From Capitulum mitella (lineage: Eukaryota; Arthropoda; Thecostraca; Pollicipedomorpha; Pollicipedidae), in NCBI GenBank assembly GCA_030062745.1, contig CP099848.1, forward strand, positions 17,905,081-17,969,080: 64,000 nt of DNA, in the 5' to 3' direction. Each line of letters opens with the position of its first letter. Position 1 is the first letter of the stretch. Positions 19,101-56,000 of the stretch are shown piece after piece. Both the position numbers and the translations under genes were made by a program. Under the pieces are notes generated by a model that did not search any database, had not been told where the DNA came from, and worked only from the letters and a program-made list of their open reading frames with translations.

Positions 19101-22100
19101 AACACCATGCCACCTCCTGGTCGTTTCTAGAGACGACGTTGTTTTTCATTACCAGGTCAGGTACACGTTGTGCGTGGATCAAATATAGGTCAGCGTCTAG
19201 GTAGCTGTAACATCTAAACTACGTGTCTTTCGAACCTGGAAAATACATGAGACGACTTCTTTCCCTGAAATTATTAAGAAAATATGGCTACATGGTCAGT
19301 TATCTCAGTTCATTAAGAAGTTTGACCGAAAAGTAACATTTTCAAGATCGATGCGCGACCCCTAAATATTGTTCAGCTTTCTTAAAAATCGCTGTGTGCG
19401 CTTCCGGTGAACGAAGCCATTGGACAAACTTAACCCTATTCCCGGTAGGGGGGTGAATCCGCCCCCCCCCCTCGGGTTTTTTGCTTGCTAATTCCAGGCT
19501 TTTTAACGCAACTTCACGAAACTTGGTGACTTTTCCTAGCTATTTTTTCTACGCGCCGTGACAAAACTTCATAATTCTGTTTTGCTCGGAGGCGGAGCCA
19601 GGCAACGTTTTTGGGAGGCACCTCAGGCCATTTTTGGTCATGTTGGGGGTAAAAGGAAAATGTCTGCCCAAAACAGACTTTTTAAAATAGAACTTAAAAC
19701 TTTATATGGATGCATAGCTAAATAGTTGGGCAATATGCAGTTGTAAATTTTGTTCGTCTGAGGTCACTTTAGAAGGTCAGGTCAAGGTCAAAAGTCAAGA
19801 TTTGTTTTTTTTTGCAGTAATTTCGGCGGCGTTTTTTTAAATGCCAAACCCGGAATATATGCGACGTAGCACGATGTCCTCTACTTGTGTACCAAGTTTC
19901 AGCTTGATATCAGGTCGGGTCACGGAGCTGTTACCTAAAATGTCACTGCGCGTACCCTATATCGCAATAGCCATAAAATGAAATTTCTGAAATAGAGTGA
20001 TTTCAAATGATTGAAAACGTTTACAGATAATATTAAATGCACACGACATCATTCCAAGTGACCCCAAGGTCACTGGAGGTCATTTAAGGTCAAAGGTCAC
20101 AAGTCCGTCTGAAGAGCATGTGACCATGACAGTTTCCCCTTTTTCATGTCCCTGGCGCCGCCTATGCTAACATTATACAAACATTGTGATGTGATTTGTA
20201 CTTCTTTAGCATAACATGACTGGCAGAAGCCAAAAAAGTGTTTTTGCTTCTTTTGCCGTTCATTTGTTAGCAAACTAATCCTCCTATTTTTGAAAACCTT
20301 TGAACTCCCATAAATTTTCTCAAAATTTCAGATTTGTATACTCATGGTAAAAGCTCTATCCATAATCTCTCGATTCATGCCAGTTTCATTGAAATCGGTC
20401 GATAAACAACGGAGTTATAAGAAGTCCAAAAGTACCCCTGATTTTGACATTTTTGCCCCCCTGTGTCCACACATTTTAAAATTTTGAAAATTTCTTTTTA
20501 TAAAAATGTAGTTCACGTCATGGCAAATCGCTTGCCGTTTGTTGCGATTAGATCGGATGTGTAGTTCTCGAGATCTTAGGGGGGGGGCGAATCCACCCCC
20601 ATGCCGGGAATCGACCATACCGTCTAGCCCTCCGGGAATAGGGTGAAGCCAACTACAGCTTTCGAAAGAAAATGCAGAAATGCCGCAACCTAACGAACAC
20701 TTGCTCCAGACAAGCCAAATTGTTTGTTAGTGTTGAACTTTGTTTGAAGTTGTCATTTTTTGTCTGTGTAGACAAATGTCATATCCATGATCCCTAGTGC
20801 ACATAATGTGGTGTATAGATTACAGGGTTGTCGGGGTTGGTTGTTAACATTCACTAAGGAGGCTGCTTTCATGAGAAGCAGTACTTATTTTTTTATGAAG
20901 AATACATTTGAAACATGAGGCTTCTTGAGTGTGATGGGTATGGGTCTAGTTACTATTTATCTAGTTATGGGTTTAGTTAAGGTACGTTAGGGTCTAGTGG
21001 TAATTTCTGTCATTGCCACTAATGCTCATCCTGCATCGTGTAGCAGCGGGGTTGACAGAATAAACCAGACCTTGCAAACATGCCCCTGAGGATAATGATG
21101 TCTGTCATTCAAAGGCAGAAGATAGTGCTCTGAGTTCTCGTGGCAGAAATAAACTTAAATGGGAGCAGGGTTTAATTTTATTTTTGCTACTGAATGTTGA
21201 TGAAAACAAAATTAAAGAAATAAGAAGAAAATGAAGTTATGCGGATGGCCATTGTGTTATGTACAGGCCAGTCTGGAAAAGTGTTTACAGATGCGTATTC
21301 AGATTTATTTGTACAGTTACACCGTGAGCCAGGGTTTCAGAGACATCACATTGTTATTCCGGAATGGGAAGTGCATTATTAATTTTGATGTGTGATAAAC
21401 CATGAACACCATTTTTTCCATTGTATCTTCATTTTTCATCACTACATCAGCAGCAGTATTGCCACATGAACAAAAAAAAAAAAAATCAAACTGATTCGTA
21501 AGCACCCAAAACCTAATGTTCAGATGTTGCAATCTTCCACTGTATCCACTGAAGCGAGTTAACCTGGGCTATCTCCATTGTCATTGTGAACCATTACCAG
21601 TTTCTAATTTAATTTCCATCCTAGTGATCAAGGGATCGTAATTACTTTTTAACTTGCCCATTTTATGATTGCATATCTCTTTATGCAGGGATACCTGTAC
21701 ATGGGAATTCGAAGGGGGAAAATCATTGGCGTAGGAAGTCTGCTGAAGTTTAGGGTGCATGATGTGCCTCCCTCTCCCTAGGACCAAAACTACTCGGATT
21801 TTGGGTACTTCATGTTTGTCTTCTGATTGTTCCTCTTTTCGAAAGGTAAGCCATGTTTGTTAAACTTTTTGTTCATGCCGGGAGGGCTCTGCCCCAGCTG
21901 AAATGTTAGCCGGGGCATCGGCCCCCTATAGCAACGACCCCCAGAAAGACGGATTGGGCATGTCTGATCAATGAAGTGTGGGCTGCAAACGCAGGGGTTG
22001 TGATCCCACCGCCTGTTGTACACGCCTACACTTCATGCTTCAGCGAAGCACAAAAAAGTGGGAAGAGGGAGGAGAACGTATGAAGGAGTATGTGCACCGG

Positions 22101-25100
22101 CGGGAAGCCTGAAGGAATCAAGCCTAATACAGCCAGTGACCAGGTTTTTAGAAACGACTTTGATCATGGTGCAAAATTTCACACATTACCCTACCTACAT
22201 GTTATTCAACTGCGCACTATGGAGTAAAGGAAAAAAAAACACTCAGATGTTCTGCGACAAAGATAACTGTTTATTTTTGCATTAACAAACTTTTTTAACA
22301 CTGGGCGGTTTTGGGCCTTGTCCTGACAGAACTTCGTATCGCATTTCTTCGTATCGCGTTTCTTCGTACGCAAAACGTCGTGCGCAAATCTTCGTACCGC
22401 AGATCCTCGTACGCAGATCTTCGTAGGCAAAAGATCCGGAGGCGCAAAACTTCGTAAACGCAAAGTTCATATACGCGTTTCTTCGTGCCCGCAAATCTTA
22501 GCATACGCATTTCTTCGTATACGTATTTCTTCGTACCGCATTTCTGTGTATGTGCAAATCTTATCGCATTTCTTCGTCTCCGTAAAACTTCGCATCCCGT
22601 TTTTTGGGCACTCATAATTTGCCCTCGTGTTTCTGGTCAACGAAGGGCTTCGTGTTGAATTTTTCTCGCATCCCGGCTTTAAACATGAAGTGACTGATGA
22701 CGCAATGACGCGTGATGGCCGCCAGAGGACCCAGCGGCCGAAACATTATTTGAACATCATTATGTTCTGACATCTTAGTCTGAATAATTTTGGCATTTGC
22801 AGGTAAGATATCTTAGATGCCGAGGCTCTCTCCACCCTCCTCGTGGCCGAGGGAGGTCGTGGACTCTGGTCCCGATGGCGCCGGGTTCGAATCCCGGAAA
22901 GAACGAACTGTTTGGCTCGACCATACACAGTGCAGTCTAACCAGAGAGGGTCAATTACACGGGGGCCGAACGCTCCTCAACGCGCCGCTTTGCCCTCTTG
23001 CTCCCTCCCCCCCTCCCCAAGTGCCAGTTCTTGACCACGTCTCCGGGCTGGAGACCCTTTAATGCCGTGGGCGAAGTTTTTTGACCTTATTTTGGCCACG
23101 CGTTCGAGGAGCCTTCAGAGTGCGTAAAAGGATAATAATTAATATGTCCCAGGCATTGTGAATGGTAAGATACGGCTGATTTTCTTTGTTCCAGATCGTG
23201 GCCTTCCTCTTGATCGGCGTGGCGACTTACGGCAAGACGTCCAGCGTCATTACCAGCATCAGCGTGGTAGGCGGCATCGTGGCCTGCGGCGTGTTCCTGC
23301 TGTTCATCGCCGTGATGGGCCTGGTGGGCGCCGTAAAGCACCACCAGGTGCTGCTCTTCTTCTACATGGTGGTGCTGTTCATGCTGTTCCTGATCCAGTT
23401 CAGCGTTGCCTGCGCCTGTTTGGCCGTCAATAGCGAACAGCAGCAGCAGTTGGCCTCCGCAGGCTGGCGGATCGCCGACAACGCCACTAAGACGGACGCC
23501 CAGAACCACTTCCAGTGCTGCGGCTTCAACACCACCGACAACGCCGGCCTCCCTCACGACTTGCAGCACCCGCCCTGCCCGATGGTAAGCGCTGGCCGCC
23601 ACCGCCGCCGCCGCCGGGCGCGGCGGGATGCGACCCTGACCTGAGTGGTGTCCGCAGGGTGCTCGAACCGGCCGCACCGCCCTGTGACCAGGTCACTGAC
23701 CGTTGAGCGCATTGGGTGCCATAGAGCCGTAGCGCGTGCTGAGTGTGTGGGCGGGCTCAGAAGGCGCCGGGAGCTGTTAATGTGGTGAGCGCAATTAAGA
23801 AGTCGGTGCTGAGAAGGAACATTGCGTCAGAGTTTTCTCGTGTTTATATGTTGCATTGGCGTGCGGAAGTGATTCTGACAGATGAACGGTCGTTGCTACT
23901 ACGGCATTGTTGAACAATTCTGGTGAAATTTCTGGAAAACTGACAATGCTTGTTTTGCAGTTGTCAGAGGAATCGTATGGGGGCTGATCGTCACGTCATT
24001 CCATATTTTTTTGCATTTCTGTCCGTGCGATAGCATGATAAGATGTGCTAGAAATTTAGGAAACAGGCACGATAGCTCCCTGCTGAAGTGGGTCGCGGTC
24101 CGGACCCTTTTCAGACACCAGTCGTGTTAGTTCGCGCCCCCTGCCTTGAATTATGTCCGTTTCCTCAGGCACTGATGGCGTTATCCATGTGCGCTCAGTA
24201 TTGTGTACTGGCAGGAGCATGTCCTCCGGTGTCAGTGTGGTCCCAGCCCTCCCTGCCGTCTTTTCTGTGTTGTCGATGCGTGCGCTGCCTGCCTGTGCGT
24301 TAGGACTATGTCCTTGTCTCTGTTCAGGCGGTACCTGGTGTCATTGAGAGATGTGTCTGTTCATGCTGCACCTGCTGTCAGTGGGAGGTGTCATTTCTGC
24401 TCAGGTTGTACCTGGTGTCAGTGAGAAATGTTGTCTGCTCAGGCTGTACCTGGTGTCAGTGGGAGATGTCTCTTCTCGGGCTGTGCCTGGTGTCAGTGGG
24501 AGATGTTGTCTCTGCTCTGGCTGTACCCAGTGCCAGTGGGAGATCTTGTCTGCACAGGCCGTGCCTGGTGTCAGGGATGGTGTCTGCTTAGGCTTTACTG
24601 GGTGTCAGTGGACGATGTTGTTTCTGCTCCGGCTGTACATGGTGTCAGTGAGAGAGGTCATGCGCTGACAGTAACGGTGGTGCGCTGAGCAAGACCGCGC
24701 AGGTGCGTCGTCTGACGGTGCTCCCTTTTTCGCCAGCCTTGCTGCCCGTCCAGCACGAACCCGAAACAGTGCTGCATGGGCACCGCCTGTCCGGGCTGCG
24801 GTCCCTGCGTCACCCAGCTGAACGAAGCCATCAACTCGGGCCTGCGCGCCAGCGGCGGCATCGGCCTCTTCTTCAGTCTTACCGAGGTTAGTGGCGCCCA
24901 CGCGACGTGTCTACCCCCCCCCCTCCTGTCAACCGGCCAGCGTACTAACTCTGTGGTGCTGAGCTCCCGTTGAGCCGGCCGCCGGCCGTCGTGCGTCAGG
25001 GGTCGGCACGCCGCGGGCCGCTCTGTGCTAACGGCGGCGGGCGGTGCTGGTTCGCAGTTGGTCGGCGTGTGGGCGACTCACCGCTACCGCCAGCACAAAG

Positions 25101-26681
25101 ATCCGCGCTACGCGCCTAACTCGTTCCTATAGACGTCCGGCGAGGGGGCCGGCGCCGCCGACTAGCCAGGTCAGTGGGCGTCCAGCTGGCCTGCGCGCCG
25201 GGGCGCTGCTGCTGCTGCTGCAGCTGCTGCCGCTGCCGCTACCGTGGACCACGTCTGTTTCTTCGGACGCGATCTGGTCGGAGTTGGCCACTTGTTTTTG
25301 GTCTGCATGTTTGTAGGTGCGTTTTGTTTCGTTTCGTTCGTTGCCTGCAGCCGCTGCGTGGGGATGGCAGCTAGTGCGTTTCAAATGCAATTCGTCCCAT
25401 AAAAGTACACAGAAACATTGTAAGTAATTCGCCGTTGTCGTGAAAAACGTTCAAACACTTAGTTGGCCCTAAATTGTTTTATGTATTAACGTTCGTGATC
25501 GAATTCCAGGCCAAGTAAAGTATTGGGTCTGAGCCCCCAGATGACCTTCGTCGTTTGAGCACCGAGGGACCGTGGGAAACTAGTCGTAGTATGGAACTTG
25601 ATATTCAGCCAGTGGAGGTAGTGGTTTCCTCTTTTAAGAGAGCTGATTACTATCTTTATGCATTAAGAAGCGTTTGTAAATGGTTCTTGGACTTTCAGCA
25701 TCATTGTAAAGGAAAGTAGCCGTTTTTGCCCTGAAGGAATGCTTTATGTAATAGCATGTTAATATTCACTTTTCAGCACCGGCATGATCTGGTATGAAGA
25801 AACTAGGCTCATTTTCCAATCCTGCTGATTGCCATCGCCGGGCTCCACATTCATAGGACATCGGCTTTGTGTGGCACGCACATCTATTGGTCTTACTCTT
25901 GAGTGTTGGACCTCATTACTGGATAGATTAACCCTTTAATTATTGGAGTATACTATTGAAACTGTGAATTCTTTGTGATGAAACTTATGATTCAGCGCTG
26001 GCGTTCGTTACCGGATCTGGATCTGGTCAGCCATCTTTTAAGTTAATTTTTCGAAATGCTGTCGCCCAAGATACGTCATGACCCTTGCCATTCGACGGCT
26101 ACGTACTGCATAGCTCCATCTCAGCTTGCTTGTTTGTGCAGTGTTTTTGCTGTTTTTGTGTTTTTTTTTCGTAATTCTGGTGGGAGATCGACTGTTCCTT
26201 TTGGTACGTGACGCATGCCATTCCTCGCGCGTGTTAAGCGCTTCCGTTACCTGTTTTCGTCTTCATTGGCACTTGAAGATTTCCGGTTTATTCTAAACGC
26301 CCTGTTTTAAACGCCCTAAACGCCCGCTGGGGCCTTCAGTACTGTTCTGCATTTTCTGTCGGTCTCGTACATTAGTACTGGTGATTGGAATGCAAATGTT
26401 GGTAGTGAAGTCAAATGGCGGCCTTATTAGTGACAACTTTGATGTGCATGCGATACGTTTGTGCCCCGGGCCACCCGTTCTGTGATGTGCCTCTCTGGTT
26501 TGCCGTGTGCCGGCCGTGTTCTGGGCAGCTCCTCTGTCGTTTGACGTCGGTCTCTGAGGGCGGCCGGCCGGACCTGTCGGTCCAACTGACCGGGCCTGCT
26601 CCGTTGCAGGTTCTGGGCTTCGTGCTGGCGTTCCAGTATCGGCGCCAGTCGGACCCGGAGCGGGTCCAGGTGATCGAGTAG
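7087..26681 (+). CDS. Tetraspanin of the TSPAN13/TSPAN31 type, two C-terminal isoforms
   Basis: Model: 7,087-7,146 + 23,195-23,584 + 24,737-24,886, then either 25,058-25,132 (224 aa) or 26,610-26,681 (223 aa). All junctions are phase 0 with GT/AG ends. Tetraspanins are four-pass proteins that organise membrane microdomains. Residues 2, 7 and 11 are cysteines near the N-terminus, as in family members with a CGGF start. TM1 spans the exon 1/2 junction, TM2 is about 44-66 and TM3 about 72-98. The large extracellular loop (about 99-187) has CCG at 128-130, ten cysteines and N-glycosylation motifs at 116 and 132. TM4 starts at about 190. The segment GAVKHHQVLLFFYM and a tail with KDPR and final FL are typical of vertebrate TSPAN13/31 (204-210 aa). 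Intron 1 is 16 kb and holds most of the transposons between 7 and 23 kb. The family assignment is firm; function here is inferred. Confidence 0.9.
7442..9428. other. CpG-depleted block in tetraspanin intron 1
   Basis: By eye only one CpG (7,949) occurs in 1,987 bp, while CpGs are frequent just outside (7,176-7,441 and from 9,429). TG and CA are abundant. This fits long-term germline methylation and deamination. No coding exon is seen. Confidence 0.7.
8350..9010 (+). mobile_element. Old, CpG-stripped relic of family P MITE
   Basis: Landmarks of family P appear in order: the TTCACAGG..AAAATGGGAGGA block near 8,375-8,412, AAAAGGGGAACTATCATGG (8,539), the double half-site TGACCTTTGACCT (8,582-8,594), CATAGCTCC near 8,750, and the ..ATTATTTACCTATACA..AAGTTCT block near 8,945-8,990. 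Both ends have decayed. Where other copies have CG, this one mostly has TG or CA. Confidence 0.7.
9430..10420. other. Intronic, nothing recognised
   Basis: This part of tetraspanin intron 1 shows no supported exon, repeat array or RNA gene. Confidence 0.4.
10425..10810 (-). mobile_element. Diverged family P MITE fragment
   Basis: GTGACCATGATAGTTACCC, then TGCCTATATTGACATTATACG, then a TTATAAGGTAGAAATACCCC block, match family P read in reverse (compare copy A near 20,120-20,430). Clear termini are missing. This piece keeps its CpGs. Confidence 0.6.
10985..11460 (+). repeat. GC-rich minisatellite
   Basis: Degenerate units of roughly 30 bp of the type CTGCCGGCCTGTAGGGGCCCC are repeated about 15 times. 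The open frames on both strands here are produced by the repeat and are not genes. Confidence 0.75.
11461..12300. other. Intronic, nothing recognised
   Basis: There are overlapping minus-strand open frames but no homology or splice support. Confidence 0.35.
12755..13020 (+). repeat. Short-period degenerate array with TTCGT core
   Basis: About 14 units of roughly 16-18 bp share a core AAAGTTCGT followed by CCAGGACA or GTAGGACA. The architecture recalls the arrays at 22,315-22,610 and 46,080-46,395, but the unit is different. Confidence 0.7.
13130..13550. repeat. GGAATC/GATTCC fold-back element
   Basis: Two arms of about 58 bp (13,247-13,305 and 13,366-13,424) are inverted copies. Both carry CCAATTCTTA and TTGGTTCT, and both point to GGATCC at the inner side. 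The flanks carry more GGAAT/ATTCC words. The right flank (13,495-13,550) resembles 14,090-14,160. Confidence 0.65.
14025..14160. repeat. Truncated copy of the GGAATC element
   Basis: GCCGATTCATTGTGTCCCAAAAGGAATG parallels the flank near 13,205-13,235, and AAATGACTTTTAACAAATGTT parallels 13,523-13,550. The central fold-back is missing. Confidence 0.5.
14170..15630. other. Intronic, nothing recognised
   Basis: No supported exon or RNA gene is seen. A local palindrome CCGTTGCCTAGCAACGG occurs at 15,432-15,448. Confidence 0.35.
15635..15785. repeat. ATTCC/GGAAT-rich palindromic patch
   Basis: Words such as GGAATCATTCC, GGAATGATTCCC, TGGAATGAT and CCAATTCCAATTCCAA are clustered. The composition resembles the element at 13,130-13,550. 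Confidence 0.5.
15930..16365 (-). repeat. Left arm of a long inverted repeat pair
   Basis: This arm matches 18,965-19,429 in reverse complement over about 0.45 kb with moderate divergence. Shared features include CTATTGGAATTATTTGTAAGG / ACAAATAATTCCAATA, GGTGTGTCGCTCTCGTACCCC, and GGGGTCGCGCATCG / CGATGCGCGACCCC. It is either a large terminal inverted repeat or two opposed copies of one dispersed element. Confidence 0.7.
16370..17030. other. Intronic, nothing recognised
   Basis: No exon or RNA gene is supported. The sequence may be interior to the inverted-repeat structure. Confidence 0.35.
17034..17390 (+). repeat. Duplicated interstitial TTAGG telomere-like blocks
   Basis: Two copies of a ~161-bp unit (17,055-17,215 and 17,216-17,389) each contain six or more GGTTAGGTTAGG-type repeats. 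Each is followed by the same unique tail, with ACTATGTTAGGCTAGGGTAAA and CCAGTTTTGTTCCGTGATTTT. TTAGG is the common arthropod telomere motif, and CTAGG variants are interspersed. Confidence 0.85.
17470..17545 (+). repeat. ATT trinucleotide microsatellite
   Basis: An imperfect run of TTATTATTATTAC-type units. The neighbouring open frame is a low-complexity by-product. Confidence 0.85.
17901..17977 (-). repeat. Degenerate tRNA-Arg-like sequence (pseudogene or SINE head)
   Basis: On the minus strand TGGCCTAATGAATAA is close to the A-box region of metazoan tRNA-Arg. CCAGA/TCTGG forms an anticodon stem with a seven-base loop, and CTGGG/CCCAG forms a T-stem with a seven-base loop. The loop CTGGAGT replaces TTCRANY, position 33 is not T, and the acceptor stem pairs poorly. 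It is not a functional tRNA. Confidence 0.55.
18000..18960. other. Intronic, nothing recognised
   Basis: A 21-bp direct duplication (TAAAAGAAACCGACCGCTCTC-like) lies near 18,130-18,170. The open frames on both strands have no support. Confidence 0.35.
18965..19429 (+). repeat. Right arm of the long inverted repeat pair
   Basis: Inverted partner of 15,930-16,365. Its outer end coincides with the TTAA where family P copy A is inserted (19,430). Confidence 0.7.
19430..20647 (-). mobile_element. Family P MITE, copy A (piggyBac-like, TTAA)
   Basis: The element begins TTAACCCTATTCCCGG and ends CCGGGAATAGGGTGAA; one TTAA has decayed to TGAA. It is reversed relative to copies B-D. There is no transposase. 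TTAA targets with a CCCT terminus are characteristic of piggyBac-type elements, so this is probably a non-autonomous derivative. Four AGGTCA half-sites at 20,067-20,099 are spaced 4, 4 and 1 bp. A second half-site cluster lies near 19,760-19,795. It lies in tetraspanin intron 1. Confidence 0.85.
20648..22310. other. Intronic, nothing recognised
   Basis: Mostly AT-rich sequence with a short CCTTG-free A-run (about 21,472) and no supported exon, RNA gene or repeat boundary. Confidence 0.35.
22315..22836 (+). repeat. TTCGT-unit array plus spacer of a composite element (copy 1)
   Basis: About 18 degenerate ~15-bp units of the type CTTCGTATCGCATTT run to about 22,610, followed by a ~220-bp spacer leading into the SINE at 22,837. 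The same order appears in reverse complement at 45,636-46,395. Spacer matches include AGGACCCAGCGGCCGAAACAT versus ATGTTTCGG..CTGAGTCCT. Confidence 0.75.
22837..23062 (+). mobile_element. tRNA-derived SINE (copy 1)
   Basis: A Pol III A-box-like GTGGCCGAGGG (22,843) and a perfect B box GGTTCGAATCC (22,884-22,894) form a Ser/Leu-tRNA-like head at 22,841-22,900. A body follows that includes GAACTGTTTGGCTCGACCAT and CTCCGGGCTGGAGACCCTTT. The body recurs inverted at 45,636-45,830. Confidence 0.75.
23195..23584 (+). CDS. Tetraspanin coding exon 2
   Basis: The acceptor TTTGTTCCAG and donor ATG|GTAAGC bound 130 codons covering the rest of TM1, the small loop, TM2, TM3 and the first half of the large loop, including the CCG signature. 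Third codon positions are almost all G or C. Upstream in-frame TTG or other codons are intronic, so the annotated start lies in exon 1. Confidence 0.95.
24305..24660 (+). repeat. ~38-bp minisatellite in tetraspanin intron 2
   Basis: Nine variable units of about 35-43 bp each contain TCTGCTCAGGCTGTACC and TGGTGTCAGTGGGAGATG, or close variants. Several units carry an acceptor-like TCTGCTCAG|G. The array ends about 75 bp before exon 3. Confidence 0.8.
24737..24886 (+). CDS. Tetraspanin coding exon 3
   Basis: The acceptor CCTTTTTCGCCAG has a CTGAC branch-point-like motif about 25 bp upstream; the donor is GAG|GTTAGT. Fifty codons hold the second half of the cysteine-rich loop (CC, CC, C, C, C) and the first part of TM4, ending GIGLFFSLTE. 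Both last exons join here in phase 0. Confidence 0.95.
25058..25132 (+). CDS. Tetraspanin last exon, isoform A
   Basis: The acceptor GGTTCGCAG is followed by 24 codons and TAG. The product LVGVWATHRYR, then KDPRYAP and final FL, aligns residue by residue with the TSPAN13/31 C-terminus (LGVW, YR.QKDPR, FL). This is the ancestral-type end. Confidence 0.9.
   Translation: MVGVWATHRYRQHKDPRYAPNSFL
25133..26609 (+). other. 3' UTR of isoform A and intron leading to isoform B
   Basis: A short GCTGCT/GCTGCC-rich patch lies at 25,208-25,240. No further exon is seen. No AATAAA was found close after 25,132, so the end of the isoform A transcript is unknown. Confidence 0.5.
26610..26681 (+). CDS. Tetraspanin last exon, isoform B
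   Basis: The acceptor CTCCGTTGCAG, with an upstream ACTGAC branch-point-like motif, is followed by 23 codons and TAG. The encoded VLGFVLAFQYRR, SDPER and VQVIE completes TM4 and gives a different acidic tail. It has the same phase and length as isoform A. The high GC3 and the clean acceptor argue that it is real. Confidence 0.75.
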   Translation, partial: VLGFVLAFQYRRQSDPERVQVIE

Positions 26682-28800: not shown

Positions 28801-28876
28801 GTTCATTTTTCGGTGACTGACGCCTTGGCGGCATTGGAGGAACGAAGGTAAAGAACTGCAGTGGATTTTTGTTAAG

Positions 28877-28882
28877 GTAAGT
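28877..28882 (+). promoter_or_regulatory. Consensus 5' splice site, candidate end of Sex-lethal-like 5' UTR exon
   Basis: AAG|GTAAGT at 28,874-28,882 is a perfect donor just before the CpG-poor block, about 2.9 kb ahead of the acceptor at 31,772. The pairing is inference; the non-coding exon start was not located. Confidence 0.3.
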
Positions 28883-29700
28883 TTCAAATGATTCGATTTA
28901 AATGCCAACGTAGCCAATGCTGGAATTTTTCTCGATAATACTGCTACAGTATGGCATAGAATTTTTATCAGTCAGTTAAGACGAACCATCGCAGGGTTAG
29001 ACCTATGTGCAGCTGAATATCAGCGTAATTCATGTTCACTACTGAATGTAATGGTCTAGTGTTTTGACAGTTAATCTACACAACATGCTTTGTCAATTCT
29101 TGCCTAACTAGTAGTATGGCAGAATTTCATGGATATCTCTGGGGCATTTTGCCATTGCATCATTGAAAAATTGATGAACAGAGGGTAAGCTCATTCAGAA
29201 TAGGATTGTATTCATAATATCTGATATTAATCATTGATATTGAGGATGAGGTCAGATGCATTTGTAGTTCCATTTTGCTCCATTATGGAAAAAATGGCTG
29301 GTATTCCAGTAACTACATGTAAAGAAATATGTGTAGATTTTGGGACAAATGTAATCCAGTAGAGCTGGAGGAATTCAGTACCTTCTGCTATTACTTTCCT
29401 TACTTAATGTTATATTACCAATCAGATGACTACACCTGATGAGACACAGGATTTGATACAAGACCTGGGACACCTGAAGCTGAAGGGGCTGTGGGTCCTA
29501 ACCCACAGACAAAAAGACATTAAGTTATTTTATTTTGGCAGGATTGCCAAATGCTAGGGATGTGTCTAGCTCAGTCTTATCAAACTCCTGGCATTCCTAA
29601 TTATATCACAGCCTTACATAGGGTAGCCATACTCAAAAGGTCCCCAGCAGGGATGTCAGTTTGTATTGAGGGCCCTAGCCCACCCAATTAGAACAAAAAG

Positions 29701-29820: not shown

Positions 29821-29823
29821 CTA

Positions 29824-29824
29824 T

Positions 29825-29903
<79 letters not shown>

Positions 29904-31772: not shown

Positions 31773-31783
31773 GTACTGTCAAG

Positions 31784-37287
<5,504 letters not shown>

Positions 37288-39091: not shown

Positions 39092-42000
39092 GTGAGAAGG
39101 GTGGGCTGGCCCGAGGGCACGGGCACCAAGACTTGTAGAAAGTCCCGTCCGGCTTAACCCTATTCCCGGAGGGCTAGACGGTATGGCCGATTCCCGGCAG
39201 GGGGGGCGGATTCGGCCCCCCCCCCCTGAGATCTCGAGAACTACTCGTCCGATTTTATCGCAACAAACGGCAATCGATTTGCCGTGACGTGAACTACATT
39301 TTTACAAAAAGAAATTTTCAAAATTTTGAAATTTGTGGATATAGGGGGGCAAAAATGTCAAAATGGGGGGTACTTTTTGACTTCTTATAACTCCCTTGTT
39401 TATGGACCGATTTCGATGAAACTGGCATGAATCGAGAGATTATGGATAGGGCTTTTACCATGGATATGCAAATTTAGAATTTTGAGAAAATTCATGGGCG
39501 TTCACAGGGTTTCAAAAATAGGGGGATTAGTTTTCTAATAACGGAATAAACAAAAGAGGCCAAAACACTTTTTTAGCTTCTGCTAGTCATGTTATGCTAA
39601 AGAAGTACAAATCGCATTACAATGTTTGTATAATGTTAGCATAGGCGGTGCCAGGGACATAAAAAAGGGGGAACTGTCATGGTCATACGTTCTTCAGATC
39701 AACTTGTGACCTTTGACCTTAAATGACCTCCAGTGACCTTGGGGTCACCTGGAATGATGTCGTGTGCATTCAATATTATCTGTAAACGTTTTTATTCGAT
39801 TAAATTCACTCTATTCCAAAAAATTCATTTTTTGGCTTTTGCGATATAGGGTACGTGCACTGACATTTTAGGTCATAGCTCCGTGACCCGACCTGATATC
39901 AAGCTGAAACTTGGTACACAAGTAGAGGGCATCTTTCTACGTCATATATATTCCGGGTTTGGCATTTGAAAAAATGGCGCCGAAATTATTGCAAAAAAAA
40001 CAAATTTTGACTTTTGACCTTGACCTGACCTTGTAAAGTGACCTCAGATAAACAAAATTACATCTGCACATTGCCCAACTATTTAGCTATACATTCATAT
40101 AAAGTTCTAAGTTCTATCTTAAAACCTCTGTTTTTGGCAGATATTTTCCTTTTACCCTCAACATGGCCAAAAATGACCTGAGGTGCCTCCCAAAAACGTT
40201 GCTTGGCTCCGCCCCTGAGCAAAACAGAATTTCGAAATTTTGTCACGGCGCGTAGAAGGAATAGCTAGGAAAAGTCACCAAGGTTCGTGAAGCTGCGTTA
40301 AAAAGCCTGGAATTGGCAAGCAAAAAACCCGAGGGGGGCGGATTCCGCCCCCCCCCCCCTGCCGGGAATAGGGTTAATCACCCACGTGACAATTGTGCGA
40401 GCTCAGACCTGCCCGGCGCCACAATGTCCGCGCTGCCGGAAACTCGATTCGCCGTATTTCCGGTGTCCGTCCCCGGCCGGCCTAGGAATCTCGCACCACA
40501 GTCAGGCCGATCTCTGTACTCTCCGTCACGGGCAATCGCGCGGTGTCACCTGACCCGCGGGCGAATAATGCAGCGTGGACGACCAGCTGTCGGCCGCTCC
40601 CTGTGATAGCTGCCCTGGTCCATGGTGTGTTTCTCAGGGCTGCTTCGTGCGACCTGGCCCATCCTGTGCTCTTCATGGCGACCCCGTGTGGCCTGATCCG
40701 CTGTATGCTCCTCGGGATGGCCCTGCGTGACCTGGTTCGTCGTATGCTGTTCAGGGCGGCCCCATATGTATCGTGGACCCGTCGGAGTTGTACCGACCCG
40801 ACATCCAGTCCAGCAAGCCCAAGGGCCTGTTCCGCGAGTTCAGTCTAGACAAGACCGACTACATCCAGAACCGAGTGCGCGAGACCTACCTGAAAATGCA
40901 TACCTACCAGACTGTCGACTACGTCAGGAAAAAGGTATGTGCCGGGTTCACTTTAAAATCCCTGTTCCCTTTGCCGTGCCGCGAATCTACTAAAACAGTA
41001 AGCTTACAAAGATAATCAATGGTCTTGTAGAAAACCATCAGGTAGCCAACTGATTACTTTGCTGGGGCTTCTCCGACTTCCCCTTTTGTCTTCTGCCGTT
41101 TGAGCCGTACATTATGCAGGCATTTTCATTTGCAACCATCGTTATCGTTTCAGCATCATCCTGTTGTGCGCGTTGGATTATTATTAGAAACGGCGACACA
41201 CAGCTTGTGTTGTAGGGAACGGGAGATGGATCGGGCATGGCCAACCCCCTGCCCAAATAGGAAAAAAAACAGATTTCGACCACTTCGTTTTTAGTTGGAA
41301 ATCGTTTTTGTTTCATTTGCAGGGGAAAGCAGATGGTTCATTAGTTCATTAATTTTGTGAACTATTACCATTATTTTTTTATATCGGCATGACCAGCGGT
41401 GGCGCCATTTTCTCTTTTCGTCTAAAGAGTCTGGTGTAATGTCAAAAGATGTCGTCCGTCTTTTGGCGCGTCTCGTACTAACGCGTTCCATATGTACCCC
41501 CACGGTGTCGTCACCCCTGGTTATTACATCAGCACGGAGGTCTCTTCCAGGCGGAAGGGTTGCTTACACAATATCCTTGATGTCGCCGCCGAAATACTTC
41601 GTTCTGTGACATAACACCAGTCGTCGGCCTAAACATAGCGTCATTTCCAGAGTACTGCCGTTCACCGACACAGCTAAAAGATGCCCCCACGACAGATGGA
41701 GTACTGGACGCGGTTCGACAAGTTCGAGGCGACCATCATGGAGGCGCTGGAGAAGCTTAACGATCTGGTGGACGAGGCCGACCCAGACGTGGACGTCCCG
41801 AACATCGTGCACGCCTTTCAGACGGCCGAGCGTATCCGAGAGGACTTTCCCAAAGACGACTGGTTCCATCTGACCGGCCTCATCCACGACCTCGGCAAAG
41901 TGCGCTTCCGCTGCCGATCTCTGATGAGTTTAACACGCACAATTTTTCCTCTCCATGCGCACATGCCAGGCGTCCATCTAATTACCGCCGAAACTATTGT

Positions 42001-45250: not shown

Positions 45251-45264
45251 TTTTTGCAAAAACC

Positions 45265-45830: not shown

Positions 45831-45835
45831 CGAAG

Positions 45836-46395
45836 AATAAAGTCTTCATATCTAAGGTATCTTATCATGATGAATGCAGTAGTTATTCGGACTAATATAT
45901 TGGAAAATTATGACGTCCAAATAAAGTTTCGGCTGCTGAGTCCTCTAGTGGATATTAGGTGTAATTACGTCATCAGTCATCTCGTGTTTGAATCTGTGAT
46001 GCGAGAAGAAATTCGACAAGAGCCTTTCGTATGACCAGAAACGCGACGGCAAATTTCTAAGTGCCGCAAAAAGCGAGATACAAAGTTCTGCGTATACGAA
46101 GAAATGCGATACGAAGATTTGCGTATACGAAGAAATGCAATACGGAGAAGTGTGTTTACGAAGAAATGCGCATATAAAATTTTGCGGATACGAAGAAATG
46201 TGTTTCGCGATCACCAGGTTTTGCGTACGAAGATTTGCGTACGAGGGTTTGTGATACGAAGATTTGCGTGCAATGATTTGCTTACGAAGAAATGCGATAC
46301 GAAGGTTTGCATATTACGTTCTGCTTACGAAGAAATGCGATACAAAGAAGTTATGAAGTTATACGAAGTTATATGAAGTAATATGAAGTTCTGTC
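45836..46395 (-). repeat. Spacer and TTCGT-unit array of the composite element (copy 2)
   Basis: Reverse-complement counterpart of 22,315-22,836. About 20 units of the type TACGAAGAAATGCGA run from 46,080 to 46,395, and the spacer includes TTTCGG..CTGAGTCCTCTAG. Confidence 0.75.
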
Positions 46396-46399
46396 CAGA

Positions 46400-48440
46400 C
46401 GCGCCCACTGGCATATTTGTTTAGACGAGCTCCTATGCGTCGTAGGATCGGTGGCAGGGACATATCCGGAATTTGAGAAGCGGGCAGTTATGGCAGCCAA
46501 GCTTCAATCCCAAACAGTCAGTTTAGTTCATGGCATCGTAAAAAGGGAAGAAGAAGAAAGTTACCGAGGATCTGACCCTGGGTGGCCTGATAATCTGGCG
46601 AGAAACAGACTTTCTCTGAGAAAAGATTTCTCAAAAGTTTACTGCCACTTTGACGTCACTGGTTGATTTGTGCATTGGCTGGCTAGACTGGTTTATGTCT
46701 AAAATGAAACGACACAGCATTGGGAGCAGGGCTTGCCTGGTTAGGGATGACACAGCACACGCTTCCGTTATGCACTTCGTTTTCAGCGCATCTGAAGCAC
46801 ACATTTCGGTCACATAACAGAGTAAAGTCTGCAAAAACCTGACCCGACAATTGGGTTGCGTTCTGCGACATACCAGTCGAAATCCCAGGACCGTTTGATT
46901 ATGTGGCGCCGTGCATATGTGCTGAACGATGCTCGTATCCAAATGAGCACGTCGTCGCGGCAAACGGCGCGGCGCGAGGCGGTCGTTTTTTCGCCCCGGG
47001 CCGGCCGCGGCGGGGATGTCCGTTACAAAAACCTGACAGACCCTGTCCGTCTGACCAGCCGCCTGGCATTTGTCACGAACTCCAGACGGCGCAGCGTAGT
47101 CAGACACTGAGAATAAGCCGCTGGCGCTATCCGGCCTGCAGCGTCACAGCACGCGGTTCAAGGACGGCAGCCGACACCCAGACAGCAAACGCTTGTGGCC
47201 CCCCAAGAGGCTGGTGTCTGTTAACGGAATGAATTGTTCTGGGCTGTCTTTTGTCGTTTGTCTCACACTTCCGTCATCATGAATTGCAAAAAATGCGTGC
47301 ACATCAGAAATGGTTGTCAATCAGCACTGCGTATGACTGAGCAATGTAATCCGGGTTTTCGCTAATCCAGCAGTGGATTAAAGATGTTAAGTTTAATTAG
47401 AACTTAATGATGTAAAGTTTAATGCGAGGACCCCGGAAACCCGCGTTCATGGAGTTCTGGTATGGAGACTGCCGTGCATGAGCAGCGAGAAACACTGAAT
47501 CGGAAAGTAAAGGTGACTCGGGCAGCGCTTAACGAAATCGGCAAGGATCTTATTTTATCAAGCTGTATCGTAGGTCAGTCATGTAGGAACATCCAGAAAA
47601 GTGGGGGGGGGGAGGGCGGAGCCGTTTTTCCACACAGGGTTAACGTGAAATTTCCCAAAAAGTGGAGGATGCAAAGCCTGCCCTTCCCCGTTCCTACGTC
47701 CATGTCGCAAGTTCTCCCTGGGTTGGCATGCACATGTCATGCGGTTTCTCAACAACTGTTTTCAGCACATAAGCATCTGGAGTTCTGCTGGAATCAAAGG
47801 GCTCGTAGAAGATGTTTCAGCCGTCTGTGGTCTCCCACGCCTGACCCTGGAGCTTACACAGCCGCGAGCTTGGGTACTGTATTACTGATTCTTGGCGTCC
47901 AGGCGCAGTCGGTGGGTGGGTCCGCTTTAACATCGGTCGCGTAGCCCCGACATCGCCGTCATTACGACGGCCAGTTACAACACGACTGGCCGGCCCATGT
48001 TTACCCTTCGGATCAGCCAATGAGCGCCAGCACGCACAAGACAACGCCCACTTTCGGCCGCCGGGCTCCATGACGTCATCCCGTTTACCCAGTAGAGCGC
48101 TGACGCGACCATGGCGTGACCCCAAATGGCGGTCGTCGGAAGACGTCGCTGGGAATTTCTCAGAGAATGTGCTCAGTGCATGGCACCGCTCGCCCTGCGG
48201 CGTAAAATGCAGAACTAGAAAATAAACAAGTCGAACATTAACATTACCTTTCCAACTGATGATGTTCCTCAACTTGCGACGTAGTCGCATGTGTATTCAG
48301 ATTCACGCTCCAGTTTCGACCGATCCACACCTTAAAATCAAACGCATCGGACTGTTCAAGAGTATGAACTTTGGCCTTCATTCCGTCACACCATTTGTCT
48401 TCTGGAGGTCAAGCAAAACTTCCAGCAATTTCCTTTACAT
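46400..48440. other. Intergenic, no supported gene
   Basis: Medium-length open frames on both strands (for example 46,631-47,107 minus and 47,462-47,944 plus) lack homology or splice evidence. No RNA gene was seen. Confidence 0.35.
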
Positions 48441-48445
48441 GTAGG

Positions 48446-49265
48446 GGAGACTGGGGTCAAATGTAACACGGGGCAATTGTAACAGAAGCGTTTACTTCGA
48501 AACTTACAGATGGATGACGCTGGAGGCACTACTGGACATGCACAGTAAGCTGTTCCTTTTCCTCACGGGGTTTCAGGCCGGTGCGGCGGGTGAATCGATT
48601 GTGCTGTTCACAATTGTGTTTTTTAGAGTGTATTGTAACTTTGTTTATTTTTTAATATGATCAGCTCATTCACGTATCTTACTAGACACGGGTTTAAGAG
48701 TTTGTGTGGGGTGGGTGGGGGTATCTGGTCAAAAAATGAGTGCATCAGTTGCCGCCCACGCCGCCTTGTTTTGCGTCATTTTGTCTCAAAGACGGCGTGG
48801 CGTGACGGGGACAATTGTAACATTTTTGCTGGGATCAAATGTAACAGTGTTACAATTGATTCCTATGGCCAGACCATTAAACCTACATTTACGTAAAATA
48901 TCCATGCATTTGGCATAAATGTAACCACTGGAGTCGGAGGCTTTGGAAACATGCCCCGTCCATTTAATCAACATGCAATCTTGTTCCCAAATTCAGTATC
49001 ATTATCATTCAAAAATCATACTTACGGTATTATTGTCACCAGTCCCTGATTTATCTTTTAGGTACTGTTTTGTCAATTTTAATTTTAATACATGGTTACA
49101 TACTTGGCGGCTAGTCACCGTGGTCTTACCGTAGATGTTTCACCTTCACAGCGGATTTATTAAGATATTTTATTATTTTATTTATTTATTATTTTACTGA
49201 TTAAATGATTCTAGTTTGACTTCATTTGGATATTTCCGGGGGAAGTATGGGACAATTGTATATAG
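48446..49265. mobile_element. Putative MITE with GGGGTCAAATGTAACA terminus
   Basis: The left part reads GACTGGGGTCAAATGTAACA, then GGGGCAATTGTAAC. GGGACAATTGTAAC and ATCAAATGTAACAGTGTTACA recur near 48,808-48,858, and GGGACAATTGTA at 49,248. Boundaries and target duplication are not resolved. Confidence 0.35.
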
Positions 49266-50190
49266 TTTAATTTGTCTTTCTCTGAATGTTACATTCATAC
49301 ATACATGACAGCAGCCAAATCGTCGCATATAAAAGCATCATCGATATCCTGAGTCAGCCCCAGTGACCTGACCCGCGACCTCACACTTCAGCGACCAAAG
49401 TCGCGGTCGAAATAGGGTGGCGTTATGGCCGCCAAATTTACCGTTTGTTGTCCGCCACGCCCGCCACCCCATCGTACGCCTGACAGGGGTCATGTGGTCC
49501 TGCCGGAGGACCCAGCGCTCCAGACGTTGCGTAACTCCTCAGCTGGCCGGTGCAGCCGCACTCGGCGGTGACCGGCACGGCCCGGGCGGCGTCCGATTGG
49601 TCGATTACTGGCACTTGGCCAGGCACTAAATCGTAATTGGCTGTGTGCATCATGTGCGTGTAATCGTGCAACTCGTGGTGGTTGTACGCCTGCTTTGGTG
49701 CATAGTGCATATGACAGGCATGCGGGGAAGAGCTTTGAATAAGCACTCCTGAGGCATGCTTATTGGTGCCTATTATAGGCGGGCATGCATCAGACACGCC
49801 CGCCATGTCTGAACGACTGGAAAACCAAAACCCACGAGGGTAAGCAACTTTGCTTAACCTTCTTTTTATTCACTCGACAGAGGAACGCACCGCTCTTTCG
49901 TTGACCGCGCGGCTCCTGCATTGTCTGTGTCACCGGCGACCTCTCAGAGCAGAGCTGCTGACCTCAGCTCCGGCGGAGCGGGCGCCGCCACTGCCGGTAT
50001 CAGGAGGCTCCTAGCCAGCTGAAACTGGTGGTCCGTCCCAGGCCGGGACCACGGTCAGAGCAAAGTTCATCACCTCCAGCAGCAGAGACCGGCCATCGGA
50101 CCCAGGCCAGGACCTCGGTCATAGGTGAGTTCACCACCTCCAGCGGAGAACGATCTTCCTTACTTTGCGGAAAACACGGGCCCAGAACAT
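49266..50190. other. Intergenic, with one short tandem duplication
   Basis: At 50,030-50,150 a ~68-bp unit (CCCAGGCCGGGACCACGGTC.. TTCATCACCTCCAGC..) is present twice. Nothing else is recognised. Confidence 0.4.
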
Positions 50191-50199
50191 TTTTCTTTG

Positions 50200-50209
50200 T
50201 TTATTTATT
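50200..50209 (-). terminator. Possible poly(A) signals of the minus-strand gene
   Basis: Two overlapping AATAAA hexamers (minus strand) lie about 530 bp beyond the TGA at 50,734. Confidence 0.4.
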
Positions 50210-50733
50210 TTGTCAGTATCTCTCCGTGACACCAAACAATTTAAAGAGCGTTCATTAATAGTCACACTTCATTTGCAATGACGTTCGAAGTAATACGACT
50301 TTCCATAATACATAACAACCCTAGACACCTTTCCACTTAGAGGTTACGGAGATTGGGGGGCTTCAGCTTCCCAGCGACATCGGACGGAGGTCACAACTTT
50401 CACAATGTTGCTAATACGGCGGCAGATCCTAAGACCTCATGAGACCGGCAATCATATCGGGGGAAACACATACACATTGTGCATTGTTACGCGACGCACG
50501 CATCCTAATTTATTGTCGGCGGCGGTGAGCCTGACGTGCGAGCGCGTACCGCACCCGCTCTCGAATCGCCGCAGACGCCACAGGCCCAAAGGCCGTCTTC
50601 ACGCGTGCCATGGCTGACGCCTGACATATCTGCCCATCAAGACTTGACGACGGCGCTGTAGAGCTGATTGGGAGCTGCTCAAACCGCTGGAACGCCAACC
50701 GGAAGCCGATCAAGCTTTCACAGGCCCGTTGGC

Positions 50734-53063
50734 TCACTGCAGCGCGCACGAGGTCTCCGTGTCGTCGGCGCCGGCTTCCCGCGCGGTGCGGCCGGCCGCC
50801 TCCTGGCGGCCTGCGGCGGCGGCGGCGAAACTGGCCGGCCAGAGTAACGGCGGCCCCGGCAGCCGGGCGGCGTGGGCCAGCACCTCGCGGCACGCCTGCG
50901 GCCCCAGCGGGCCCAGGTGGAGCAGGCCGGCCGGCAGCGCGCCACCGCCGCAGCCGACAGCCGCCGGCCGCGCCGGTTCTGCCGCGAACGTCGGCGGCGG
51001 CAGACGCAGCGCGCCGCCGGACGCCTGCGAGAAGCCTGTCGGGAATTCGGGCTGCGCTGACGCGTACGATCCGCGGAAACGGGCCGCCTTAGCCGGATCC
51101 AGCGCAGGCAGCGATGGGTAGCCGGCTCCAGCGGTACTGCCTGCCTGTTGCTGGGGTTGCTGTTGCGACAGCGGCGGTTGCGGCGGCGGCGGCTCCGGCA
51201 ACACCAGGCAGGGTGAATGGCCCGGCCACGCCCGCTGAGCCGACTTGTCGTCGGTGGGCGGCCAGCCGGCGGCTCCGGGCCCCGCTCCACCGGCACCGCC
51301 GCCAGCACCGCTCGACCCAGAGGCCACTGCCCTCCACGAAGTACTGGACGATATGCACGTGTCCACCACCAGCTCGCGGGCCTTTTTCCTGCCGCGTCGC
51401 TTGCGCGGCTTGCCTCCGGCGCCGGAGCGGCTGGAGGTGCCGCCGCGCTGGCCGCCACAGGCCGGCGGCTGCGACGGCGCGGCGGCAGCGGCCGTGGCGG
51501 CGGCAGCGGCCGGCCTGGGGACGCCGGCCGGCGCCAGCATCTCCCGGCTTGCCTGCTGCGAGAGGAGCGCGTACTGTTCGAGCGCCTGGCGCTCCAGGTC
51601 GGAGAAGCGCCGGCTCAGGCTGTCGGATGACTCGTACTGCTCGATGGCGAGGAACTCGAGCTCGTCGAAGCGGCGCGTCACGCTGTCGCGCGACGAGCTG
51701 GAGCTGACCGACTGCTGGTGGCCGGGCGTCGACGGCAGGCTGCCCAGGCTCTTGGTGCGCCTTAGCTGCGGCGCGGCCGCCGCCGCCGACTTGCGCGGCG
51801 TGGACGCCGCGGCCGTCGGCGTCGGCGCGTCGGAGCGCGGGCTCAGTTCGGTCGATGGCGGCCCGCTCGAGCCGCCCACCTGGCCGATCCGCCACAGCTC
51901 GAACAAGTCGGTCGTGTTGCCGTCCGACACTCCCAGTAGGTGGAGGAAGTCCTCGAAGGTGCTGCGGCCGCAGCAGGGCGGCGGCGCCGAGCGCGGGCTG
52001 CCCGTCGGCGTGCGGTTACGATCCGCCGCTGCCGCCGGCCGTTCGGACCGCAACAGAGTGTCCGAGCTGGAGTGTCGAATTGCGCCGCGACTGGCGGCGG
52101 TGGCGCCGGCCGCCCGGTGCCACAGGGCCTTGTGCAACATGCTGCAGGCCGCCTGGTCGCAAGCGCGCGCAGACTGACCCGAGCCGACGGTGGCCGTCGC
52201 TGTGCACTGAGCGGCGGCCGGCTGCTGATGGCTGAACTTCGAGAACGGCGTGCCCTGCTGCGGCTGCTGAGGCGGGCCGACGCTCTTGCCGGTCGTGTAC
52301 TGAGCCGAGGCGCCGTTCGGGAGAAGGGCGCACTGCGAGCCCCCGCCGCTCTTCTGCGGCAGAAACGGCAACGACGCGCCGCTCTTCTGCGCGGCGAACT
52401 GCGCCCCGGCCCGGGTCGAGCACGGGCCAGGCAGGACGCCCTGCTGCGCAGGAAACGGCGCCGGCGCGCCGGCCGGCTGCGGCGCGAACTGCCAGCCGCC
52501 ATGGTACCAGGCCGGCGAGCTCTCACTGACGGCCGGCCACGGCCCGCCGGGCGCCGCCGGGTGGGACGAGACCCTGGCAGCGGTGTCGGCCGGCCGCCGA
52601 CCGCCGCCGGCCGCCGACAGCGGCGTGCCCTGCGACAGACCTGCCGGCGGCGTCGGCGCACCGCTGGCCGGCCTGGCTCCGGGCTCGGCGGCGGCGAACC
52701 GCTGGCCGCCGGCCAGCGCCGGCTCGCAGAGAGCGTCAGCCGCGCGGCCGGCGCCGGCGCCGGCCATGGCCCTGCCGGCGGCCGCGGCACCGTCCTGCGC
52801 CCAGTCAGACCTCTCCCGACTGGCCGAGGCGGCCACGGCCGCGTACGTCGCCTCTGGCGACCCCGTCTGGCCGCCGCCGCCGCCGCTGCCGCCAGGGGAT
52901 TCAGGACCGAGGGTGGGACTTGCTGACGGCGCGTCCCACAGTAGACGCACCTCCGGCGCCCGCAGCGCCTCCAACAGCTTCACCTCAGCTTCCGTGGAGC
53001 GCTTCAGGACCAGTTCAGAGATTCCCTGCAGCTCCCTCTCTGTTATTGGCCTTAGTAGCGCAC
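50734..53063 (-). CDS. Unknown protein, long last exon
   Basis: An open frame of 776 codons to TGA at 50,734-50,736. Third positions are overwhelmingly G or C, as in other exons nearby. The open frame extends back to 53,151, where a Met could start a shorter form, but the phase-compatible acceptors at 53,063 (or ACAG near 53,042) argue that the upstream part is intronic. The stop lies inside CA|GTGAGC, so an alternative donor at 50,738 could splice on to another exon. Confidence 0.65.
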
Positions 53064-56000
53064 CTGCGGGATGCGTCTGAATTTTTTTGCGGAACCATGA
53101 GGTTGTCGAATTCAGTGTTGTCGGACGTAGTATGCAGTTGATCGCAGCCAAGAAAATGATCGGTCACACTAAAGTGGTGTGAATGTTTGACTCCGATTAC
53201 TGTAAGAAAGTTTCCCTTCCATGTGGACAAGTTAGGCATGCATGACATGAAGCAGACATAGAACAAGGTTGTTGTTGATTGTCCCATAATCTATCACGAG
53301 TCACTTAACTCATTACTGAAATGAACTGACCGCTCGGCGTGGTGCACACAGTGAAAGTAAACGGATTAGTCTTCAGCGAAATTTAGGTAATTAGCGGGAT
53401 CAGATCCTTTCTCAAACTACCCGAAAGATGAGAGGCCGAAGCACCAGCTCAGTACGATCAACACCAGGTCACACTAACAGAACAGGCTTAAACAATGCCT
53501 GCCACGTTTATTTCCCCTTGTCGCAACTCGCAGGACAAATGGATATTAATCGATCGATTTAAGGATTTTGCACCCGAGGAATTAAAAGTATGTATGTCCC
53601 GTACAGCTATGGCATTGTTCATGGTCATCACTAGGTGACTTAAAAACACCATAAAGAAGTTCCAAGGGCAAAACAGCGCCGTTGAATAGGTTAAAGGGAA
53701 ACGCACAGAACACAAAGCAATATATACGGAAAAAGGAAATGTGAAATATTTGAATCATACTGAAGCTACATATGCCTCATTTGATATCAGCTTATTGTGT
53801 ATTCACCAGGGGGACCGAAATCCGAATGAGCACCACTTCAGTTAGGAGAGAAATCAAACTGAACGTTCTGGGCATAAGGCTTTCTCGAGGCTAATCACTT
53901 CGCAGCCATTCGGCAAAGAACCATGAAATGTTTGCTAGAAGATAGCTTAGTTCTTTACATATGAAACATCTACTGCAATTGCAAGATTTTTCTTCCACGT
54001 AGCTATTCCGGGGGTAATATTTGCGCTCTTGGACCTATTTTTCACGGGTGTTTTTGAACCGTTAAGCAATGGCAAGGAACAATATCATGGGTGAGCATAA
54101 CGTTTAAACTTGTAATTTTTCTGATGCAAACTCTGAATAAGACCGATGAATATTGGGCTGCACTGCAAGGTACACAGAGGAAAAATAATGTGCCCCACAC
54201 CAATGAATAACATACGTCCAAATTTGAAAAGAAATGAAGTAAGCCTTGCTCAGCATGCGCCTCACAAGAAGACTTGTACTCGATTCCAACGGAATCAGAG
54301 CCGAATCCGGATTCGCTTCCATTTGGACTGGAATTGGATTCGGAATCGATTCAGTTGGAAATTGTGTTGAGTCAGATTCAGAATTGATTCAGCTGGTCCG
54401 CGGAAACACTGGAATTGAAAGCGAATCCAAAGGCCAAATGTCTGATTCCGCTCCTTGTCACAGCTGAACCTACCACTACTTTGGTATTAAAGAAATATGT
54501 CTACAACCACTTAGTTATGCATGTATATGCACTAAAGACTTCACTTTGAAAGCAGTTTTAACCCTATTGCCGGAGGGCTAGGCGGCATGGTCAATTCCCG
54601 GCAGGGGGGAGCGAATTCGGCCCCCCTGAGATTTCGAGAACTACTCGTCCGATTTCATTGCAACAAACGGCAATCGATTTGCCGTCACGTGAACTGCATT
54701 TTTACAAAAAGAAATTTTTAAAATTTTGAAATTTGTAGATACAGGGGGCAAAAATGTCAAAATGGGGGGCATTTTTGGACTTCTTATAACTCCGTTGTTT
54801 ATTGTATATTTGGACCTATTTCGATGAAACTGGCATGAATCGAAAGATTATGAATAGGGCTTTTACCATGGGTACAGCAAATCTCAAATTTTGAGAAAAT
54901 TCATGGGCGTTCACAGGGTTTCAAAAATGGGAGGATTAGTTTTCTAACAACTGAATTAACAAAAGAGGCAAACACTCTTTTTTGACTTCTGCTAGTCATG
55001 TCATACTAAAGAAGAGCAAATCGCATTACAATGTTTGTATAATGTTAGCATAGGCGGTGCCAGGGACATGAAAAAGGGGAACTGTCATGGTCACACGTTT
55101 CTCAGATCAACTTGTGACCTTTGACCTTAAATGACCTCCAGCGACCTTGGGGTCACTTGGAATAATCTCGTGTGCATTTAGTATTATCTGTAAACGTTTT
55201 CAATCACTTGAATTCACTGTATTTCAAAAATTTTATTTTATGGCCATTGCGATATAGGGTACGCGCACTGACATTTTAGGTCATAGCTCCGTGACCCGAC
55301 CTGATATCAAGCTGAAACTTGGTACACAAGTAGAAAGCACCCTTCTACATCATATATATTCCGGGTTTGGCATTTGAAAAAGCAGCGCCGAAATTATAGC
55401 AAAAAAACAAATTTTGACTTTTGGCCTTGACCTAACCTTGTAAAATGACCTCAGATAAACAAAATTACATATGCACATTGCCCAACTATTTAGCTATACA
55501 TTCATTTAAAGTTTTAAGTTCTATCTTTAAAACTCTGTTTTTGACAGACATTTTTCTTTTACCCTCAACATGGCCAAAAATGGCATGAGGTGCCTCCCAA
55601 AAACGTTGCCTGGCTCCGCCCCTGAGCAAAATAGAATTGTGGAATTTTGTCACAGCACGTAGAAAGAATAGCTAAGAAAAGCCACCAAGTTTCGTGAAAC
55701 TGCGTTAAAAAGCCTGGAATTGGCAAGCAAAAAACCCGAGGGGGGCGGATTTCGCCCCCCCTTCCGGGAATAGGGTTAAGCAGTTTCATGTCTTATGGTC
55801 CTATTTGTTTATGGTTGCGTGAGCCGGGAATTGCCTGTTAGGTAGGTCGGTAAGCCATTGAGGTTGTGTTCCAAGATTTAGAACAGTTAACGTCAGGTCA
55901 AATGCAACATCTCAGTCAACATCTCCAACTCCTTGCCTTGCCTTGCCTTGAAGCAAGCGCTCAATGAATGGCAGTGGTCAGTGGTGATGAATATGTACGT

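Follow-up and report, generated by a model that had tools for sequence, protein, structure and literature searches.

The 64-kb stretch of the Capitulum mitella genome analysed here (the window, from contig CP099848.1 of a 477-Mb sampled genome in 16 contigs) holds four copies, A to D, of a roughly 1.2-kb element family bounded by TTAA, which we call family P and which carries near its middle an array of four nuclear-receptor-type half-sites (AGGTCA, or TGACCT on the opposite strand). The half-sites form direct repeats (DR) with spacings of 4, 4 and 1, that is, a DR4-DR4-DR1 array. From the ends, copy number and coding content described below, we classify family P as a high-copy, non-coding, non-autonomous piggyBac-type DNA transposon that spreads DR1 and DR4 sequences; as judged from the consensus and the aligned copies, the array was already present in the body of the ancestral element. 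Overall, the array seems to be a little better kept than the remainder of the element. We consider it probable that the array was constrained among the source copies of this piggyBac-type family, most simply for the element's own benefit.

The copies and relatives of family P in the window are as follows.

19430-20647, minus strand: copy A of family P (89.4% identical to copy C by blastn; its 5' TTAA reads TTCA)
33740-34928, plus strand: copy B, of a diverged subfamily, between RRM exons (76.8% identical to copy C; exons from RRM Pfam matches)
39154-40377, plus strand: copy C, a member of a young subfamily (TTAA at both ends)
54558-55779, plus strand: copy D (90.0% identical to copy C by blastn)
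8363-8996, plus strand: an old relative of family P in which the array's DR1 survives at 8582-8594 (64.9% identical to the consensus)
10428-10734, minus strand: an old relative of family P with an unrecognisable array (63% identical across the main alignment)

Fragments of the family also lie at 275-372 and 59084-59205. The initial annotation had described four copies, each of about 1.2 kb, of a TTAA element, and our alignments bear this out, with A and D about 90% and B 77% identical to C. Across the family, TTAA stands at both termini in 30 of 36 aligned copies, and the 1215-bp consensus has inverted ends, TTAACCCTATTCCCGG and CCGGGAATAGGGTTAA, starting CCCTAT; judged from the ends of the copies, TTAA would be the duplicated target site. 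A start in CCC is described as usual for the inverted ends of piggyBac elements in passages of PMC10813416. No stop-to-stop open reading frame of at least 110 amino acids lies wholly within copies A to D. A stretch of copy C away from the array has 40 listed matches, C among them, all at 99-100% identity, and copy C is therefore placed in a young subfamily. Miniature inverted-repeat transposable elements (MITEs) are usually under about 0.8 kb long; family P has the high copy number of such elements (3795 first-look candidates), and its 1.2 kb exceeds their usual length. Exact patterns for the array and for the ends gave zero and zero hits in viral contigs, a search from which records of this genome were possibly excluded, and all eight Rfam matches fall under the gathering score, on or beside an AT repeat. 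Two further features of the family were noted in passing. The random stretch L016 holds two segments, 1191-1466 and 6435-6706, that are 69-75% identical to the 3' part only of family P and possibly represent related families with a common end. Within the consensus itself, positions 229-280 and 720-772, about 490 bp apart, read by eye as like phrases (ATAACTCCGT and ATAGCTCCGT, each followed by TGAAACT), which suggests an old internal duplication.

Direct reading of the window placed the half-sites as listed here.

20067-20099, element on the minus strand, AGGTCA on the plus strand: array of copy A, half-sites at 20067, 20077, 20087 and 20094, spacings 4, 4 and 1 (DR4-DR4-DR1)
39707-39739, plus strand: array of copy C, TGACCT at 39707, 39714, 39724 and 39734, spacings 1, 4 and 4
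55115-55137, plus strand: the three remaining array half-sites of copy D, at 55115, 55122 and 55132
34313-34328, plus strand: the remaining DR4 pair of the copy B array, half-sites at 34313 and 34323
19761-19790, minus strand: copy A's second cluster of half-sites, which across the family is conserved no better than background
40015-40044, plus strand: second half-site cluster of copy C, by direct reading

All half-sites that had been reported in copies A to D and in the relic at 8363-8996 were found where expected, those of the relic at 8582 and 8589 forming a DR1. The array of copy C is that of copy A read from the opposite strand, and in copy B the first two half-sites each carry one change. 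The second cluster, at consensus 858-887, is an addition to the initial annotation. Altogether the 1215-bp consensus contains nine perfect AGGTCA/TGACCT sites, where 5000 versions shuffled by dinucleotide have 0.48 on average; since none of the 5000 reached nine sites or contained a run of three, the array is not a product of chance. Receptors differ in their preferences among DR layouts, with RXR/USP, HNF4 and related receptors associated with DR1 and DR4. AGGTCA direct repeats with DR1 and DR4 spacing have, as sequence, the form of a nuclear-receptor response element array, DR1 to DR5 being response-element layouts according to statements in PMC1785376.

For the family as a whole we aligned 36 copies and built the consensus from 35 of them, leaving out copy B. 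Twenty-eight of the 35 are top matches to a 201-bp query from copy A that contains the array; of 39 other query matches 29 were taken up and 10 were left out, and one of the 29 (L050, which has an internal deletion) fell below a 900-base limit and was dropped. Conservation counts omit 80 positions at the start of the consensus and 70 at its end. The full four-half-site array stands at consensus 551-583, and among the 36 copies 25 keep four half-sites, eight keep three and three keep two. The 25 comprise 20 of the 28 query matches, copy A (the query itself) and four of seven copies obtained independently of the query. Because the consensus contains the array and 25 of 36 copies keep it intact, we take it to be ancestral, and the earlier proposal of a shared DR4-DR4-DR1 array spreading with a TTAA element stands.

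We then compared variants shared between copies with those private to one. Given base context, 67 substitutions would be expected in the array across the 35 copies, and 18 are seen; for the remainder of the 201-bp query stretch the observed-to-expected ratio (O/E) is 0.62. Shared variants amount to 0.06 per position in the array, 1.45 in the whole element and 0.88 in the remainder of the query, and the corresponding values for singletons are 0.48, 0.54 and 0.40. When the comparison is confined to non-CpG positions, shared variants affect 1 of 33 array positions, 26 of 158 positions elsewhere in the query stretch (array against these, Fisher P = 0.03) and 301 of 810 beyond the query, with 0.485, 0.392 and 0.569 singletons per position, respectively. 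The longest stretch of the element without shared variants is the 32 bp at 554-585, the next longest being 17 bp. The proposed check on half-site decay thus gave a divided answer: shared variants are nearly absent from the array, but private changes occur there at the ordinary rate. This combination suggests constraint on the source elements followed by ordinary decay once inserted, and it argues against thousands of copies being under selection as enhancers of the host. A tree of the copies places none of the array changes on internal branches and 18 on terminal ones, but 4.6% of windows also lack an internal change; we rejected the internal-terminal contrast as a decisive test given a star-like tree and query-picked copies.

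Seven copies were chosen without the array query, namely B, C, D and four from random stretches of the genome (L016, L022, L027 and L030). In these, 8 of 231 array cells are substituted (18.9 expected) compared to 586 of 7172 cells outside the array (Fisher P = 0.0035), and the half-site cells alone give 6 of 168 against 588 of 7235 (P = 0.015). Copies B, C and D by themselves show 3 of 99 array cells substituted compared to 310 of 3057 elsewhere (P = 0.008). In the deep relatives, half-site identity to the consensus is 92% for both copy B and relic 8363, whose whole sequences reach 81% and 64%, respectively; in the relative L015 the values are 79% against 69%.

Several observations weigh against reading these data as constraint on the array. 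Twenty-eight of the 35 consensus copies, together with copy A, are tied to a query that contains the array, which lowers the number of array changes counted; for this reason only the comparison within the query stretch and the seven other copies are usable. Three of those seven (B, C and D) come from the original finding itself, and without B the remaining six give 6 substitutions against 12.2 expected (P = 0.04). The four random-stretch copies alone give 5 of 132 array cells against 276 of 4115 elsewhere (8.9 expected, P = 0.12), or 3 against 6.4 expected for the half-sites alone (P = 0.11). All of these tests assume independence of copies and positions, and the cells are not fully independent. 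The second half-site cluster behaves as ordinary sequence, with an O/E of 1.13 in the 35 copies and no significant deficit in the seven (14 of 210 against 16.9 expected), and we rejected it as a conserved feature. When the 377 windows of consensus 331-740 are ranked by conservation across the deep relatives (B, relic 8363 and L015), the array comes 49th, behind better-kept blocks at 481-531 and 693-739, the latter holding an AGGTCA at 714. Finally, the relative at 10428-10734 has 36% identity over the array, which is unrecognisable there, and its half-sites are 38% identical to the consensus compared to 61% overall.

The abundance of family P was estimated from 20 random 10-kb stretches (of 60 drawn), spanning 12 of the 16 contigs and 200 kb in total. 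This sample holds four complete copies, one copy clipped at the end of a stretch and one old relative, and 3.3% of its bases match family P or its relatives. The resulting density of about 25 copies per Mb corresponds to about 12,000 copies genome-wide, with a 95% range of 4,000 to 28,000 (1.6-11.7 for a count of five). Family P and its relatives contain 41 of the 212 half-sites in these 200 kb and, among perfect pairs, seven of nine DR4 and three of four DR1. Other half-site-rich sequence was also seen. Positions 57406-57744 of the window carry overlapping and everted half-sites (TGACCT-AGGTCAGGTCA type), and similar sequence is present in no fewer than three of the 20 random stretches (L013:144-472, L018:1156-1489 and L021:8668-8986); it is apparently a repeat distinct from family P. 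Two more perfect DR4 pairs, at 63076-63091 and 63222-63237 and 146 bp apart, lie outside family P in the window.

In the explanation we favour, a transposase acting in trans would move family P into TTAA sites, as the element ends indicate, and the array is carried along as part of the element body, so that each complete insertion brings one ready-made DR1 and two DR4 sequences. The array would have been nearly invariant among the source copies that founded the family, and the simplest reason for such constraint would be a benefit that the element itself draws from the array or from its surrounding block. One possibility is that a host nuclear receptor binds the array and opens germ-cell chromatin. 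The specific proposal that the array is kept because receptor binding in germ cells raises mobility, with selection on the sources only and thousands of DR1/DR4 sites as a by-product, strikes us as a long shot. Constraint in sources but not after insertion fits a motif useful to the element better than it fits individual host enhancers. The proximity of copies to genes follows from the abundance of family P, and regulatory effects on the host would be incidental and arise copy by copy, although single copies may act as enhancers. That the array is instead a working enhancer for RXR/USP, HNF4 or related receptors, given to host genes and host-selected in some copies, seems improbable. Its spacings do fit the DR1 and DR4 layouts, and the family and its relatives supply most perfect pairs in the random sample from 3.3% of its bases. 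On the other side, private array changes occur at the ordinary rate, meaning that most inserted copies do not look selected, and gene proximity is near what copy density predicts.

It is quite possible, on the other hand, that the array is baggage inherited from a founder and that its apparent conservation reflects chance, few mutations and sampling. The family is star-like with a young subfamily, the strongest statistics rest on query-picked copies (P = 0.12 for the four random copies alone), other blocks are conserved equally well or better, and one old relative lacks a recognisable array and has half-sites less well kept than its remaining sequence. This account is harder to reconcile with the 8 substitutions against 18.9 expected in seven independent copies, and with the half-sites of copy B, relic 8363 and L015 being closer to the consensus than the rest of each sequence. 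We are doubtful of a further alternative, in which the region of the array has a structural role or contacts the transposase and nuclear receptors play no part. GGTCAC can pair with GTGACC around the array within one strand, consensus 501-640 folds with such arms at -36.3 kcal/mol (RNA parameters, without a shuffle control), and low divergence reaches past the half-sites into 471-500 (O/E 0.29) and 501-530 (O/E 0.46), both within the query stretch. Transposase contacts, however, are expected at or just inside transposon ends, and the array lies mid-element, away from them.

Tetraspanin, RRM and MIOX sequences in the window are supported by Pfam, and MIOX additionally by solved structures. The four copies had been assigned to introns of four different genes; only copy B can be placed between exons, two RRM exons assumed to belong to a single gene. 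The earliest MIOX coding exon that can be recognised spans about 40770-40930, and copy C lies 5' of it, ending about 0.4 kb short of its start. Copy A lies 5' of a tetraspanin exon that has a splice acceptor, with no tetraspanin exon upstream of copy A by motif scan. Beside copy D, an 809-residue minus-strand open frame (50734-53163) has no Pfam family match. The initial annotation had cautioned that one copy per gene could be chance; 1.6 copies are expected per 64 kb and four are present (P = 0.08 for four or more). One copy per gene was accordingly rejected as a signal, the number being close to copy density, and four copies in 64 kb are for the same reason little evidence of regulation. Elsewhere in the window, a 38-bp tandem repeat at 35663-35956 contains several TGACCT copies and runs into the open reading frame of the second RRM exon, and interstitial TTAGG-type arrays in two 171-bp units, of a kind associated with arthropods, occupy 17064-17386.

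Repeats that spread receptor motifs are already known, and family P appears to be new among them; no TTAA element with such a half-site array was found in the literature searched, judged by the titles and abstract openings listed. If the array is functional, a single transposon family would supply most of the perfect DR4 and DR1 pairs in the sampled sequence, a counterpart of the DR2 motifs of Alu, a short interspersed element, and comparing shared with private variants would give an easy way to tell motifs that serve a transposon from those that serve its host. Should the array have no function, the lesson would be that searches for receptor motifs in genomes of this kind mainly tally a single repeat. 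Among piggyBac-type elements, the mPok MITEs of Pokey in Daphnia resemble family P in their TTAA ends, many copies and lack of a long open reading frame, and inverted ends starting CCC are shared with the elements treated in parts of PMC10813416; family P differs from piggyBac-type MITEs in its 1.2-kb length and its motif array in mid-element. Primate Alu, which carries DR2 and DR4 response elements (PMC1785376), is likewise a high-copy repeat that supplies most perfect DR motifs of one kind in the sequence examined, with its DR2 motifs having arisen largely through CpG deamination in AluS. By contrast, the array of family P is DR4-DR4-DR1, already stands in the family consensus and is a candidate response element. 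The ISX element of Drosophila (PMC4384637) is a transposable element bearing a ready-made dosage-compensation binding site, much as family P bears its array, but ISX sites bind and are host-selected, whereas the family P array is a candidate binding site.

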